Assembly: GCF_005405065.1 (NCBI RefSeq)
Contig: NZ_BJDI01000011.1
Span: forward strand, 62,001-126,000
Direction: 5' to 3'
DNA length: 64,000 bases
Source of the DNA: Lactiplantibacillus nangangensis
GTDB lineage: Bacteria; Bacillota; Bacilli; Lactobacillales; Lactobacillaceae
A model generated the notes under the pieces. The model was not told where the DNA came from and did no database searches. It saw nothing but the letters and a program-made list of their open reading frames with translations. Shown here piece after piece: positions 54,512-64,000 of this stretch (position 1 is the stretch's first letter; each line of letters starts with the position of its first letter). A program made the position numbers and the translations under genes.

Positions 54512-55717
54512 ATGAGTAAAAAAGTTAATCCAACATGGACCTTACTAGCACTCGCCATCAGCGCGTTTGCGATTGGTTCGACGGAATTTATCAGCGTTGG
54601 CTTGATGCCGATGTTAGTCAGCAGTTTCCACATCAATTTAGCTCAAGCGGGGTTGACGGTTTCGGTCTATGCGCTTGGCATCATGGTTGGCGCGCCGGTC
54701 ATGACGTTGTTGACTGGCCGTTTGAATCGACATCGGCTGATGATGTTGATCATGGGACTATTTATTGTGGGTAATTTATTAGCCGCGTTAGCGCCAACGT
54801 TCAAAGTCTTATTACTTGGGCGCATCGTTGCGGCCTTAGCGCACGGGATTTTCATGACGGTCGCATCGGTCATTGCGGCGGATGTGGTTGCACCAGAAAA
54901 GCGGGCATCCGCGATTGCGGTGATGTTCACCGGGTTAACGGTCGCAACGGTGACTGGGGTACCGTTGGGCACGATGATCGGTCAGCTCGGTGGCTGGCGT
55001 TGGTCGTTTATCTTTATTAGTGGCATCGGCGTTTTAGGCTTGTTGGCCGATTATTGGTTGATCCCACGTAACTTACCATTACCTGTCAAAGCAACCGCGC
55101 GTGGTATTCTGCGGGTGCTTACAAATCCACAATTATTGTTGGCATTGTTAGTCACGGCTTTAGGTTACGGTGGGACTTTTGTGGCCTACACGTATTTGTC
55201 ACCATTATTGGAACAATCGATGGGGTGGTCAGCTAGTGCCGTCGTTGTCATTTTAGTCGTTTACGGCTTGATGGTGGCCTTAGGAAATACTTTGGGCGGC
55301 CGTTGGGCAAATAAGCGACCACTAGTGGCACTATTTAAAATGTTTGTCGGGTTATTAATCACGTTGTTAGTGTTAGCGTTCACGGCGCACAGTCATTGGC
55401 TTGGACTATTCACCGTTTTGGCGATGGGAATCTTTGCATTCATGAATGTACCGGGGTTACAACTCTACATTGTTCAGTTAGCCGAAGTGCATACGCCACA
55501 AGATATCACCATGGCATCGGCGTTGAATATTTCAGCGTTTAACGTTGGAATTGCGTTGGGGTCTGGTATCGGTGGTCAAGTGACGACGCAATTTGGACTA
55601 GCCTGGACACCGGTATTTGGAGCCTTGATGGTTGCCGTCAGCTTGGTATTGTTGGCTGGATTGATCTGGTTGGCACGACCGGTTGATGAGGAAACACCTG
55701 AGGATTGCGAAGATTAG
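54512..55717 (+). CDS. MFS efflux transporter (DHA1 type)
   Basis: 401 residues, 12 membrane helices, AraJ/PbuE-like drug:H+ antiporter-1 branch (FAIGSTEFISVGLMPML at the N-terminus; TGRLNRHRLM motif A; GVPLGTMIGQLGGWRWSF motif C-like). Probably exports a toxic compound sensed by the divergent HxlR protein. AGGAGGAAT precedes the ATG and TATAAT lies near 54463. Confidence 0.88.
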   Translation: MSKKVNPTWTLLALAISAFAIGSTEFISVGLMPMLVSSFHINLAQAGLTVSVYALGIMVGAPVMTLLTGRLNRHRLMMLIMGLFIVGNLLAALAPTFKVLLLGRIVAALAHGIFMTVASVIAADVVAPEKRASAIAVMFTGLTVATVTGVPLGTMIGQLGGWRWSFIFISGIGVLGLLADYWLIPRNLPLPVKATARGILRVLTNPQLLLALLVTALGYGGTFVAYTYLSPLLEQSMGWSASAVVVILVVYGLMVALGNTLGGRWANKRPLVALFKMFVGLLITLLVLAFTAHSHWLGLFTVLAMGIFAFMNVPGLQLYIVQLAEVHTPQDITMASALNISAFNVGIALGSGIGGQVTTQFGLAWTPVFGALMVAVSLVLLAGLIWLARPVDEETPEDCED

Positions 55718-55796
55718 GCTTCAGAGCATTTTTGTATAGTTGATTTTTTGAAACATATAATTGTATCTTAACGGAAAACTATGATAAAATTTACAC

Positions 55797-56211
55797 ACTT
55801 AACACGAGAGTTGAGCAGTACAACTCACGTACTTTGTACACAGTGTTGAACGGGCTAGTAACACATCTTTGTCAAGATGTCAACCTCCCAGTGAAGAATT
55901 TCTTTAACAGCGATTTCAATCGCCTGCGAGAACATGCCTGCGCTAATGTAGGCAATGATGATTATTGCCGGAATCACGAGTCTTCTGAAGATGAATGTCC
56001 ACGCATAATAATTGTTAATCTTATTGTAACTTTACGTAGAGCTATATAACTCTACCGGTCAGCGATGCTTGTCTTGCTAGGACATTCACTGAATAACCGG
56101 AGCGCCAACTGCATATGGTAGCATTTAGACGTCACTTTGTGATTTTATGATTCTGACCGTCAAAACAAGTGAACGATTTCCGGGGGTCTGCGGGTAACCG
56201 CAGGCCTTTTT
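55797..56211 (+). ncRNA. Structured ncRNA upstream of the reverse transcriptase
   Basis: A region of about 415 nt without a convincing protein. Promoter-like TTGTAT (55761-55766) and TAAAAT (55784-55789) stand 18 bp apart. Hairpins: GAGTTG/CAACTC (55808-55826), ACATCTT/AAGATGT (55863-55880), GGCAAT/ATTGCC (55951-55969), GTAGAG/CTCTAC (56036-56055), a CCGGT/ACCGG closed domain (56055-56100), and a terminator 56185-56211. Defence RTs such as DRT2 and DRT9 have an upstream ncRNA as template; this fits that layout. A 71-codon frame (55834-56049) crosses it without a good ribosome site. Ends are estimates. Confidence 0.6.
56185..56211 (+). terminator. Terminator of the putative ncRNA
   Basis: GGTCTGCGG / CCGCAGGCC (one G-T pair), loop GTAA, then T5, only 20 bp before the RT start codon. 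Confidence 0.8.
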
Positions 56212-56231
56212 AGCAGATGGAGGTGTTTTTG

Positions 56232-57752
56232 ATGATTGGAAAAGATAGAGCTGAAGATGTAGAACGTCTGTTCAAAGCATCAAGCAAGGTATTAAATAAG
56301 AAATATCGACATTTTGATACAATTCCAAGTGAGCAAAATGCTCGTAACTTTATTAGCGACACGGTTCTAGATCCAAAAAAGGTAAAGCGTTATAGGTTTT
56401 TCCCATTTATTGTGTATTCTCAAGAACGAGTGCGTTATCATCGGACGAAGGGAAGTTTACGTGCTCATGCTGGACACAAAGTACGTCCCATTTCTTTGGT
56501 AGCTCATCATGATGCTTTGATATATGTTAAATATGCTGAAAAACTAAATTCATGCTATGAAAATTACTTAAACGTTAATAATATCTCTAAGGTTCCGACA
56601 GCATATCGCAAAACCTTACATCATTCTAATATAGAAGCTGCAAAAGAAGTTTTTGATTTTGTAGTTGATACACATGGATGTTGGATAATTAAGGGAGATT
56701 TTAAGGGCTTTTTTGATAATTTGAGACATCGAATTTTAAAAAATAATTTGTGCAAAGTACTTTCTAAGAATCAACTTGATCCGGATTGGCGTTCTGTATT
56801 TGAATCTATCACTAGGTATAGATGGGTCGATAGTTTCAATTTAACAAATGCCTTAAAAAGGGTAAGGATAAATCGTGGGAAAACCGCTTCATATATCAAT
56901 AATAGAAGCGAGTTTCCAAAACTTATTTCTAAAGGAAAATTGAAGGTGAAAGGACCAAATCAAATTGGTATTCCACAAGGAACGCCAATAAGTGCAGTAC
57001 TGGCCAATACATATATGATTGATTTCGATAAAGAATTGAGCCAGATAGTTACTTATTTGAATGGATTGTATCGTCGGTATTCTGATGATTTTGTGATAGT
57101 AATTCCAAAATCCCGATTATCAGAAGATAAACTGAATGATTTTATTCATGAAGTAATGGTATTGAGTCAACAATTGACATCATTAAAAATAGAGCAACAT
57201 AAAACGAAGGCATTTAATTTTGCCGATAATAAAATAACATTACACAGACTATCTGGTGTACAGGATTCAAAAATGGTATGGTTTGATTATTTGGGGTTTG
57301 TATTCAACGGTGCGACTGTACGTATGAGGGAACGTGGTGTTTACAAATTTCATTATAAAAGTAAAAGAGCTATTAATCTTTTTTTACGAATTGAAAGTGA
57401 TAGAGAGCGGATCAAGAATAATACGGTGCCTTCAGCAATGGAGAAGCAAAAATTAGTTTGGATTTCGGGTAGACATGTGTTTCAGCCGCTGAGTTCCATC
57501 CCTAGTAAAAGCAAGTATGAAAGACGAATTGTTCAAACGAGAAAAAACATTTCGTATAATTTGAGTACCGCAAAATTGGCAACTAAAATGTATGTTACTG
57601 GTAAGAGGTATGGGGAAAGGTATTCTATGGTAGGTTATGCTAAAAGAGCACAGGCTTTATTGTCTGAAAATGACAATAGATACCAAGTTGAGGTGTTGGA
57701 TCAAGTTCGACAGCAGATAAGATTAAACCAAATTAGAATTAAAGAAATTTGA
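56232..57752 (+). CDS. Reverse transcriptase of defence (DRT/Abi-like) type
   Basis: 506 residues from ATG 56232 (GGAGGTG upstream; an ATG at 56217 lies in that site). RT motifs in order: RPISLVAHHDALIY (motif 2 region), IIKGDFKGFFDNL (motif A, Asp156), GIPQGTPISAVLANTYMIDFD (motif B), YRRYSDDFVIVI (motif C, Asp285-Asp286), LKIEQHKTKAF (D) and WFDYLGFVF (E). There is no maturase or HNH domain, so it is not a group II intron. The 200-residue basic helical C-terminus suits RNA binding. Codon use is AT-rich versus neighbours, indicating transfer. The structured RNA upstream is the likely template. Confidence 0.85.
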   Translation: MIGKDRAEDVERLFKASSKVLNKKYRHFDTIPSEQNARNFISDTVLDPKKVKRYRFFPFIVYSQERVRYHRTKGSLRAHAGHKVRPISLVAHHDALIYVKYAEKLNSCYENYLNVNNISKVPTAYRKTLHHSNIEAAKEVFDFVVDTHGCWIIKGDFKGFFDNLRHRILKNNLCKVLSKNQLDPDWRSVFESITRYRWVDSFNLTNALKRVRINRGKTASYINNRSEFPKLISKGKLKVKGPNQIGIPQGTPISAVLANTYMIDFDKELSQIVTYLNGLYRRYSDDFVIVIPKSRLSEDKLNDFIHEVMVLSQQLTSLKIEQHKTKAFNFADNKITLHRLSGVQDSKMVWFDYLGFVFNGATVRMRERGVYKFHYKSKRAINLFLRIESDRERIKNNTVPSAMEKQKLVWISGRHVFQPLSSIPSKSKYERRIVQTRKNISYNLSTAKLATKMYVTGKRYGERYSMVGYAKRAQALLSENDNRYQVEVLDQVRQQIRLNQIRIKEI

Positions 57753-57872
57753 GAAAATAATTCTAATAGTTAGTAGGAATGCAATGGTTCCTAATAGAAA
57801 ATGGAAGCAATTTCACGAAATTAACAAAAGTGTCGTATAATGAAACTATTCTAATAATTTAGGGGGAAACTC

Positions 57873-62371: not shown

Positions 62372-64000
62372 TTAGCTGTGCCGGCGCCGGCGTTTGATGA
62401 TTCCCCAACCGGTGGCTAACGTGATAACAGTTAGGCCTAAGCCAATTGCCGTCATGGTTTCGGTTTGTCGTTCGTCGGTTTGTGGTAACTGGCCGGTGTG
62501 TAAAACAGCTAAGCTGCGCGCTCGGAGTGCCTCTAATTTGGTTGCCCGGATAACAGCATTGGTCTTGTGGGCTTGGACGATTGCGGTGTCAATCTGGCGT
62601 AAGACTTGTTTAACAGCGACTGTCCGTTGTGGTGCTGGCAAAGCGAGTGCGGTATCGAGTCTCCTTTCAAGTTGGGTGACGATTTTGGAGCTATTTGTCG
62701 CTACTTTGAAGTAAGGCTTGGACGTAATCGGTGTTTCAGTTCCATTAGTTGGTGTTTCTGTCTCAGTGATTGGGGCGTCGAGTTCATCGATGATTACTGG
62801 ATCTTCCAGATTAGGCTCGTTTACATTGGTTTCATTTTCAGGTTCTGGATCAGTAGGGTCAGGTTCTGGCATTTCAGGTTCCGGTGTTTCAGGTTCTGGC
62901 GTTTCAGGTTCCGGTGTTTCAGGTTCTGGCGTTTCAGGTTCCGGTGTTTCAGGTTCTGGTGTTTCAGGCTCTGGCGTTTCAGGCTCTGGCGTTTCAGGAT
63001 CTGGTTCTTCAGGCTCTGGCGTTTCAGGTTCCGGTGTCTCAGGCTCTGGTGTTTCGGGTTCCGGTGTTTCGGGTTCCGGTGTTTCAGGTTCCGGTGTTTC
63101 AGGTTCTGGTGTTTCAGGTTCCGGTGTTTCGGGTTCTGGGTCTTCAGGATCTGGGTCTTCAGGATCTGGGTCTTCAGGTTCTGGTTCCTCAGGTTCAGGA
63201 TCTTCTGGATCTGGATCTTCCGGATCTGGGTCTTCAGGTTCAGGATCTTCAGGTTCAGGATCTTCAGGTTCAGGATCTACTGGTACGTCAATATCTTCTT
63301 CTTCTTCCTCAACTGGATCAGGTTTATCCTCATCTTCGGGGCCAGTGTTGTCTTGTAAATCCCAACGGTGGGTCTCACCATGAACCTCGACACGTTTTGC
63401 GATTAAATTGCCATCCATATTTTGGTTTGCAATTAAGGTAGCACTTGGCGCTAAGACACTTCCTTGGAAGCGAGAATTCACGTTAATTGTGCCAGTAAAT
63501 GTCTGCTGATTATTATGGAAGTTCCATAATAAGTGATTGTCGCCGTAAGCATCGGCGTCCTTGTTTGCACGGACCGAACCATCAGGATAGGTTACTTTCA
63601 TTTCACTTCTGCTGAGATAGTTGCTTTGTCCGTCAGTATTAACATTGAAGATAATCGTATTTCCAGTTGCTTCTGGAGAAACACCCTTGATAATCAATGG
63701 GCGATCTTTGTTCAACACGTCTGCGGCTAAATTGATAATGATTTGACCGGCCGCATCGGGCGTCATTTGTCTGACATCAATGGTTCGATTATTTTCATCC
63801 TTGAAGTCAGCATTGACATAGCTAGCGTTCGGCGTCCTTTGACTCAGTGATGTGTTGATCCCAGCCAACTTGGCAAATTCAGCAGGGAAGTCAATGTAAG
63901 TCTCACCAGGTTGGTCCTGGTAAACTTCGCTGGCTAACAAATGATCGATATAAGTGTCAGCAACGATTGGTCGCTTAGGATCACTGATATCAATGGTAAT
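62372..64000 (-). CDS. LPQTDE-anchored surface protein, choice-of-anchor A type (5' part outside window)
   Basis: At least 542 residues are visible; the frame is open to the window edge, so the N-terminus and signal peptide are missing. Order: an adhesin-like domain with FRGSVLAPSATLIANQNMDGNLIAKRVEVHGETHRW (choice-of-anchor A pattern), an acidic linker, about 150 residues of Pro-Glu repeats (PEPET and PEDP units) spanning the wall, a helical domain of about 80 residues, then LPQTDE, a membrane helix and RRRRHS. LPQTxE is the sortase motif typical of L. plantarum. Probably an adhesion protein. Confidence 0.88.
   Translation of the reverse strand: MTIDISDPKRPIVADTYIDHLLASEVYQDQPGETYIDFPAEFAKLAGINTSLSQRTPNASYVNADFKDENNRTIDVRQMTPDAAGQIIINLAADVLNKDRPLIIKGVSPEATGNTIIFNVNTDGQSNYLSRSEMKVTYPDGSVRANKDADAYGDNHLLWNFHNNQQTFTGTINVNSRFQGSVLAPSATLIANQNMDGNLIAKRVEVHGETHRWDLQDNTGPEDEDKPDPVEEEEEDIDVPVDPEPEDPEPEDPEPEDPDPEDPDPEDPEPEEPEPEDPDPEDPDPEDPEPETPEPETPEPETPEPETPEPETPEPETPEPETPEPETPEPEEPDPETPEPETPEPETPEPETPEPETPEPETPEPETPEPETPEPEMPEPDPTDPEPENETNVNEPNLEDPVIIDELDAPITETETPTNGTETPITSKPYFKVATNSSKIVTQLERRLDTALALPAPQRTVAVKQVLRQIDTAIVQAHKTNAVIRATKLEALRARSLAVLHTGQLPQTDERQTETMTAIGLGLTVITLATGWGIIKRRRRHS
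62860..63280 (-). repeat. Pro-Glu-rich coding repeats
   Basis: 15-bp units encode Pro-Glu-Pro-Glu-Thr, with a PEDPEP/PDPEDP variant block nearer the N-terminus. Synonymous C/T alternation between units gives a longer 30-bp rhythm. Such tracts vary in length between strains. Confidence 0.85.

Follow-up and report, generated by a model that had tools for sequence, protein, structure and literature searches.

A divergent DRT2-type reverse transcriptase locus with a predicted antisense neo gene in Lactiplantibacillus nangangensis

The reverse transcriptase gene and its genomic slot

The DNA analyzed here is a stretch of 64,000 nucleotides (the window) from Lactiplantibacillus nangangensis (assembly GCF_005405065.1, contig NZ_BJDI01000011.1, positions 62,001–126,000, forward strand), and all coordinates follow window numbering. 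With an MFS gene on one side and an aminopeptidase gene, which we take to be pepN, on the other, it carries a reverse transcriptase (RT) gene preceded by a structured RNA, with a predicted neo gene antisense to that RNA (Table 1). The RT open reading frame (56217–57752, +) comprises 511 codons counted from its first ATG, and the ATG at 56232 is the likelier start because a Shine–Dalgarno sequence GGAGG, read from the sequence, lies at 56219–56223.

Table 1. Features of the RT/RNA locus in window coordinates
Feature	Position	Strand	Basis
-10-like block of putative RNA promoter	55783–55790	+	AT-rich block aligned in six relatives
5' domain: outer stem 55799–55805/55843–55849, enclosing handle hairpin 55808–55813/55821–55826	55799–55849	+	paired in 6/6
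5' jump site GTAAC, end of template	55858–55862	+	shared with 56026–56030
Template, 168 nt, one predicted 56-codon Neo repeat, antisense, stop-free across the junction	55858–56025	-	sequence and shuffles
First half (TAC) of split -10 TACAAT	55858–55860	-	sequence
Predicted Neo start TTG, in neo frame, 8 nt past GGGAGG	55873–55875	-	sequence
-35 TTGACA of predicted junction promoter	55878–55883	-	17 nt from -10 TACAAT after joining of repeats
Predicted Neo Shine–Dalgarno GGGAGG	55884–55889	-	open unit with Shine–Dalgarno in 0/2000 shuffles
Second half (AAT) of split -10 TACAAT	56023–56025	-	sequence
3' jump site GTAAC, predicted restart of copying	56026–56030	+	shared with 55858–55862
Hairpin P1 (56036–56041/56050–56055), first element of scaffold	56036–56055	+	paired in 6/6
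Pseudoknotted scaffold: PKa 56056–56062/56153–56159, PKb 56132–56137/56167–56172	56056–56172	+	paired in 6/6
Intrinsic terminator between RNA and RT	56185–56211	+	hairpin and T run in sequence; present in fold
DRT2 reverse transcriptase	56232–57752 (ORF opens at 56217)	+	family profiles, sequence and fold matches

The initial annotation had described a defence-type RT with a YSDD motif, devoid of maturase and nuclease domains and working with a structured upstream RNA, and had wavered between a new class and a remote Gram-positive version of a known system. The catalytic motif is indeed present as YRRYSDDF, with RYSDDF invariant across nine aligned sequences, and Pfam returns RVT_1 alone (matches up to E 1). 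The best PADLOC family is Drt2 (E 1.4e-115, 385 bits, and 259 bits with a second Drt2 model), followed by UG39 (90 bits), with Drt9 at 59 bits; among NCBIfam models, too, Drt2 comes first, scoring 312 bits where the cut-off is 390. Of proteins with a solved structure, KpDRT2 (9c0i) is nearest in sequence (E 2.1e-49), and 9c0i is likewise the best fold match of an AlphaFold model built from nine sequences (mean pLDDT 79.6), with E 3.6e-30, TM 0.69 by query and 0.81 by target, and 26% identity, DRT9 following at E 3.6e-13. A quick tree of 68 RTs places the window RT in a group of five (SH-aLRT 100) nested within 21 Lactobacillaceae rows (SH-aLRT 93), KpDRT2 being found with Photobacterium and Psychrobacter Drt2 in a separate group of four (SH-aLRT 99). 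Judged by these profile, sequence, fold and tree assignments, the RT is a divergent DRT2 and no new class, which favors the known system of the two options and supports the annotated defence role with an upstream RNA. Assignment as a group II intron RT was rejected on the score of the maturase model TIGR04416 (only 78 of 300 bits, below cut-off) and the lack of intron RNA by Rfam, as a retron on a score of 56 of 235 bits and the lack of retron RNA by Rfam, and as DRT9 on its profile score and weaker fold match.

The locus occupies a variable slot (55717–57826). In two of three relatives compared (L128 and L130) the slot, with edges at window 55716 (55711 in L130) and 57827, is occupied by lipoprotein-like ORFs, and the DRT2 locus is therefore regarded as accessory DNA; in the third relative, L129, no MFS flank turned up within the stretch compared. 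The RT is single-copy in its own genome. Across the genus 4 of 21 genomes, its own counted, have a match, two of the others being convincing (38% and 36% identity) and one weak, and across the family some match occurs in 49 of 397 genomes, many of them weak, spanning the catalytic core only and probably representing other RTs. Searches of viral contigs and of phage records returned one distant relative and three matches, respectively; the Clostridioides phage record CP103976.1 (53349–54641) contains a distant DRT2-like RT with 29% identity at 95% query coverage. Elsewhere in the window, a long ORF at 62372–63940 (−) resembles a surface-protein gene and has numerous PEPE/PDPE repeats.

The upstream RNA and a predicted neo unit

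The RNA (55797–56216) folds at −117.9 kcal/mol with a z score of −2.62, equally stable folds being found for 1 of 100 shuffles. Five helices (outer stem, handle, P1, PKa and PKb) keep complete pairing, despite letter changes, in all six sequences compared (the window, L031, L098, L032, L103 and L033), and the structured RNA of the initial annotation is thus both upheld and found conserved in homologues. PKa, for instance, occurs as CGGTCAG/CTGACCG, GATCTAA/TTAGGTC, GAACAAG/CTTGTTC and GGATAG/CTATCC, and the strand order A5', B5', A3', B3' of PKa and PKb makes the arrangement a pseudoknot. Permutation counts (of 720) of 1 for P1, 6 for PKa and 2 each for PKb, outer stem and handle point to covariation, but do not amount to an unbiased test because the helices were chosen by eye via a position rule and then checked for pairing. 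MAFFT alignments of the RNA were of insufficient quality for a covariance model, and Rfam gave no match within the window. A DNA search with the RNA across 395 genomes of the order matched only its own genome and one relative, and a plasmid DNA search gave a single match, inside the RT gene, leading to L098. A 71-aa ORF at 55834–56049 (+) was set aside as a chance frame within the RNA.

At its edges the RNA fits the initial annotation in part. It may have a promoter of its own, as proposed, the AT-rich block upstream being suggestive, but the promoter scan listed no plus-strand site around 55760–55796. The proposed terminator, a hairpin with a T run situated 20 bp ahead of the ATG at 56232, is evident in sequence and fold but absent from the sites listed by the terminator scan. 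The RNA is longer, as had been remarked, but this oddity is explained mainly by a larger 5' domain and a longer template, of 168 nt versus the 111–129 nt given for close relatives of KpDRT2 in PMC12039810.

For KpDRT2 itself, PMC12039810 and PMC11100668 describe a template of 120 nt, bounded by an ACA motif on each side, that is copied into tandem cDNA, the junctions of which create TTGACA-17-TATAAT and an antisense frame that never stops. What the initial annotation missed, and what we consider the key feature of the locus, is an antisense, permuted unit of this kind. When the 168-nt unit is reverse-complemented and set head to tail, TTGACA-17-TACAAT (one mismatch) appears over the junction together with a single open frame of 56 codons, on which grounds the unit is a predicted neo gene. 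The GTAAC pair is the sole pair at the window locus that conforms to the one-mismatch rule; in 2000 dinucleotide shuffles of the locus, 43 gave any pair, 4 an open unit and none an open unit with Shine–Dalgarno and start in frame. The template is not flanked by ACA at both ends: GTAACACA stands at the 5' site and GTAACTTT, which contains no ACA, at the 3' site, the common motif being GTAAC. Since ACA flanks have been published for the Kp-related clade only, we did not take them as defining DRT2.

neo-like units in relatives

The search motif was derived from seven loci inspected by eye (L001, L031, L032, L035, L037, L010 and L039), all of which have open units in multiples of 3 (123–180 nt) with jump sites that match within a locus and vary among loci. 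Jump sites recorded at the window locus and its relatives include GTAAC, TATAAC, ATAC, TGTAA and ATAA. The resulting fixed rule, for which a two-mismatch listing of all loci preceded the choice of the one-mismatch limit, was applied to 63 loci, mostly to 610 nt upstream of each. It returned a pair in 25 loci, a best pair that is open in 12 and a Shine–Dalgarno in 9, against 319 pairs, 12 open and none with Shine–Dalgarno in 2520 shuffles. The 56 loci outside the motif-setting group contributed 20 pairs, 7 open and 5 with Shine–Dalgarno; for the 21 long-RT loci there were 10 pairs, 8 open, versus 147 pairs, 7 open, in 1260 shuffles; and the reverse strand of 64 loci, taken as control, gave 19 pairs, 2 open and none with Shine–Dalgarno. 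A looser rule requiring a Shine–Dalgarno recovered units in 19 of the 50 remaining loci as compared to 3 of 1000 shuffles, including units in Trichococcus, Clostridia and Lachnoanaerobaculum, with the exact consensus promoter in 7 of the 19. L103, a copy on a 22.8-kb, apparently circular contig of Lactobacillus sp. Sy-1 that was scanned after the rule had been fixed, fits (153 nt, open, Shine–Dalgarno). As positive control, Photobacterium Drt2 (L101) yielded a 111-nt open unit with exact promoter once the allowed offset was widened; no open unit was among the pairs listed for Psychrobacter Drt2 (L102).

Taken together, neo-like units are found in 33 of 64 DRT2 loci (14, plus 19 by the looser rule), all 33 from Bacillota as judged by record title or kinship, a count in which loci are not independent because close kin remain in the set (L060/L066; L048/L054/L056; others). 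The 33 include L032 and L037, for which two mismatches are needed, and L031 and L055, which are without in-frame AGGAG, GGAGG or GAGGT. The 31 loci without a counted unit include L101, L102 and L079, the last being among the 12 open units of the fixed rule, without Shine–Dalgarno and with the look of chance. L038 was scored at 120 nt, its sister L049 suggesting 141 nt, which is also open. Seven loci were left out as cut off or partial (L034, L065, L083, L088, L090, L092 and L093) and three as near copies (L036 and L051 of L035, L099 of L019).

Two cases among the relatives deserve separate description. In L033, a close relative on the Lactobacillus sp. Sy-1 chromosome, the RT and, at about 2640–2985, the handle, P1 and pseudoknot are kept and the template is missing: 55 nt separate the outer stem from P1 as against 186 in the window, and no open unit is among the pairs listed. 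A further copy in this strain (L103/L034) is complete. L048, L054, L056 (Clostridia), L060, L066 (Trichococcus), L063, L069 and L091 have neo-like units whose junctions give TTGACA-17-TATAAT (one mismatch in L060), with jump sites GTT, GATTG, ATTG, TATTA or TATT and a different offset relative to the jump site (−11 to −15), and possibly form a second Bacillota subtype.

Most of the predicted Neo repeats contain a hydrophobic segment. A TM-like stretch (19 residues with a mean Kyte–Doolittle value of at least 1.6) occurs in 29 of 33 (12 of 14 and 17 of 19), and the hydrophobicity of the 14 units exceeds that of shuffled open units with a combined p of 2e-7, single loci often lying within the shuffled range (65/200 for L032, 56/200 for L047 and 36/200 for L035). 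The only Kp-type unit in this test, L101, scored 1.26 (n = 1). A hydrophobic bias of Kp Neo has already been published (PMC12039810), and PMC11100668 models Kp Neo as an alpha solenoid. With a very hydrophobic stretch in each repeat, the Neo predicted here would probably be a multi-pass membrane or aggregating protein, membrane action being our own inference. In four close pairs the differences are spread 19/13/26 over the three codon positions (p 0.11, not significant), which does not establish selection on the Neo protein. The predicted start in the window is TTG and not ATG. Rescue of stop-less mRNAs in Gram-positive hosts may differ from that in E. coli; the genome holds a tmRNA gene, which bears on the fate of such an mRNA.

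Proposed mechanism and comparison with known systems

We consider it very likely that the locus is a divergent Bacillota DRT2 phage defence in which tandem cDNA gives rise to the predicted Neo. In this model the RNA (from about 55797 to before 56185) would consist of a handle at its 5' end, a template, and a 3' scaffold with the pseudoknot, to which the RT would be bound. The enzyme would copy the template from 56025 to 55858, and the nascent end, having copied the 5' GTAAC, would re-anneal at the 3' GTAAC (56026), allowing repeated rounds of copying. Every junction of the tandem cDNA, predicted to read ...GATGTGTTAC|AATAAG..., would complete the promoter TTGACA-17-TACAAT, from which the double-stranded repeat would be transcribed antisense to the RNA and, from the Shine–Dalgarno and TTG start, translated into an endless chain of 56-aa repeats that would arrest the infected cell. 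RT family, RNA conservation, junction promoter, stop-free frame, Shine–Dalgarno and start, and the layout in relatives form the sequence basis of this model; cDNA synthesis, phage trigger, second strand and toxicity are carried over from the published Klebsiella system. Against it we count the NCBIfam score, L033, the loci without unit, the codon-position result and the TTG start.

Alternatively, tandem cDNA may be made with the DNA or RNA itself as the effector, as sponge or polymerase trap, and Neo translation may be incidental. The fast drift of the Neo sequence and the codon-position test agree with this reading, and sponge effects are discussed by Wilkinson et al. (PMC12039810); however, open frames, unit lengths divisible by 3 and Shine–Dalgarno sequences in frame are far commoner at these loci than in shuffles, and stop codons abolish defence in Klebsiella (PMC12039810), so that we hold it improbable. 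We give even less credence to a DRT2 in decay, with an RNA that still folds but no Neo made any longer: the accessory nature of the locus and the template loss in L033 would suit such decay, but in the window the RT ORF with YSDD, the helices, the jump sites, the promoter halves and the frame are all intact. Least probable of all, and slightly so even next to decay, is a new RT class with another use of its RNA (retron-like msDNA, a DRT9-like homopolymer or regulation only), which could account for the sub-cut-off NCBIfam score and for an RNA layout and terminator unlike those of Kp, but is at odds with the gap between Drt2 and Drt9 scores, the best fold match to 9c0i and the presence of the neo layout.

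Returning to the DRT2/Neo model, units in about half of the DRT2 loci scanned, all from Bacillota, make it probable that Bacillota DRT2 systems work in this way too, with different jump motifs. This suggests that the gene-building defence of the Klebsiella type also exists, altered, in Gram-positive bacteria. As a broader and tentative conjecture, DRT2 may hide across Bacillota a separate kind of Neo, with units of 120–192 nt, locus-specific microhomologies of 3–7 nt instead of ACA, and endless transmembrane helices that would damage the membrane and so stop the infected Gram-positive cell, the fast-changing repeat keeping only frame, hydrophobicity, junction promoter and Shine–Dalgarno. No Gram-positive neo appeared among the papers listed by literature searches on DRT2 and Neo; some of these loci may already be included in the final Science version of Tang et al. 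or its supplement. The preprint that described neo, PMC11100668, comments that Neo is harder to annotate in more divergent DRT2 clades and raises other mechanisms as a possibility. For food bacteria and Gram-positive laboratory hosts, the model predicts junction sequence, repeat length and frame exactly, in a form that is cheap to check.

Among known systems, group II intron RTs and retrons have the RVT_1 domain in common with the window RT and differ in the profile scores given above and in their RNAs, for which Rfam gave no match. DRT9 and DRT10 are likewise defence RTs with an upstream RNA and make repetitive DNA (PMC12632851), but family and fold matches to them are much weaker, and the long coding template here contrasts with their poly-U or short template. 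KpDRT2 (9c0i) is closest: it shares RT family and fold, an upstream RNA with a hairpin at the 5' end, a template and a pseudoknot in the 3' part, an antisense stop-free unit, a TTGACA-17-TATAAT-like junction promoter and a hydrophobic repeat. Compared to KpDRT2, the window RT is longer (about 506–511 versus 425 aa) and so is its template (168 versus 120 nt), the jump sites are GTAAC/GTAAC rather than ACA/ACA, the jump splits the −10 box, the start codon lies 150 nt into the repeat as opposed to 13 nt past the −10, a terminator precedes the RT, and the predicted repeat contains a TM-like stretch.
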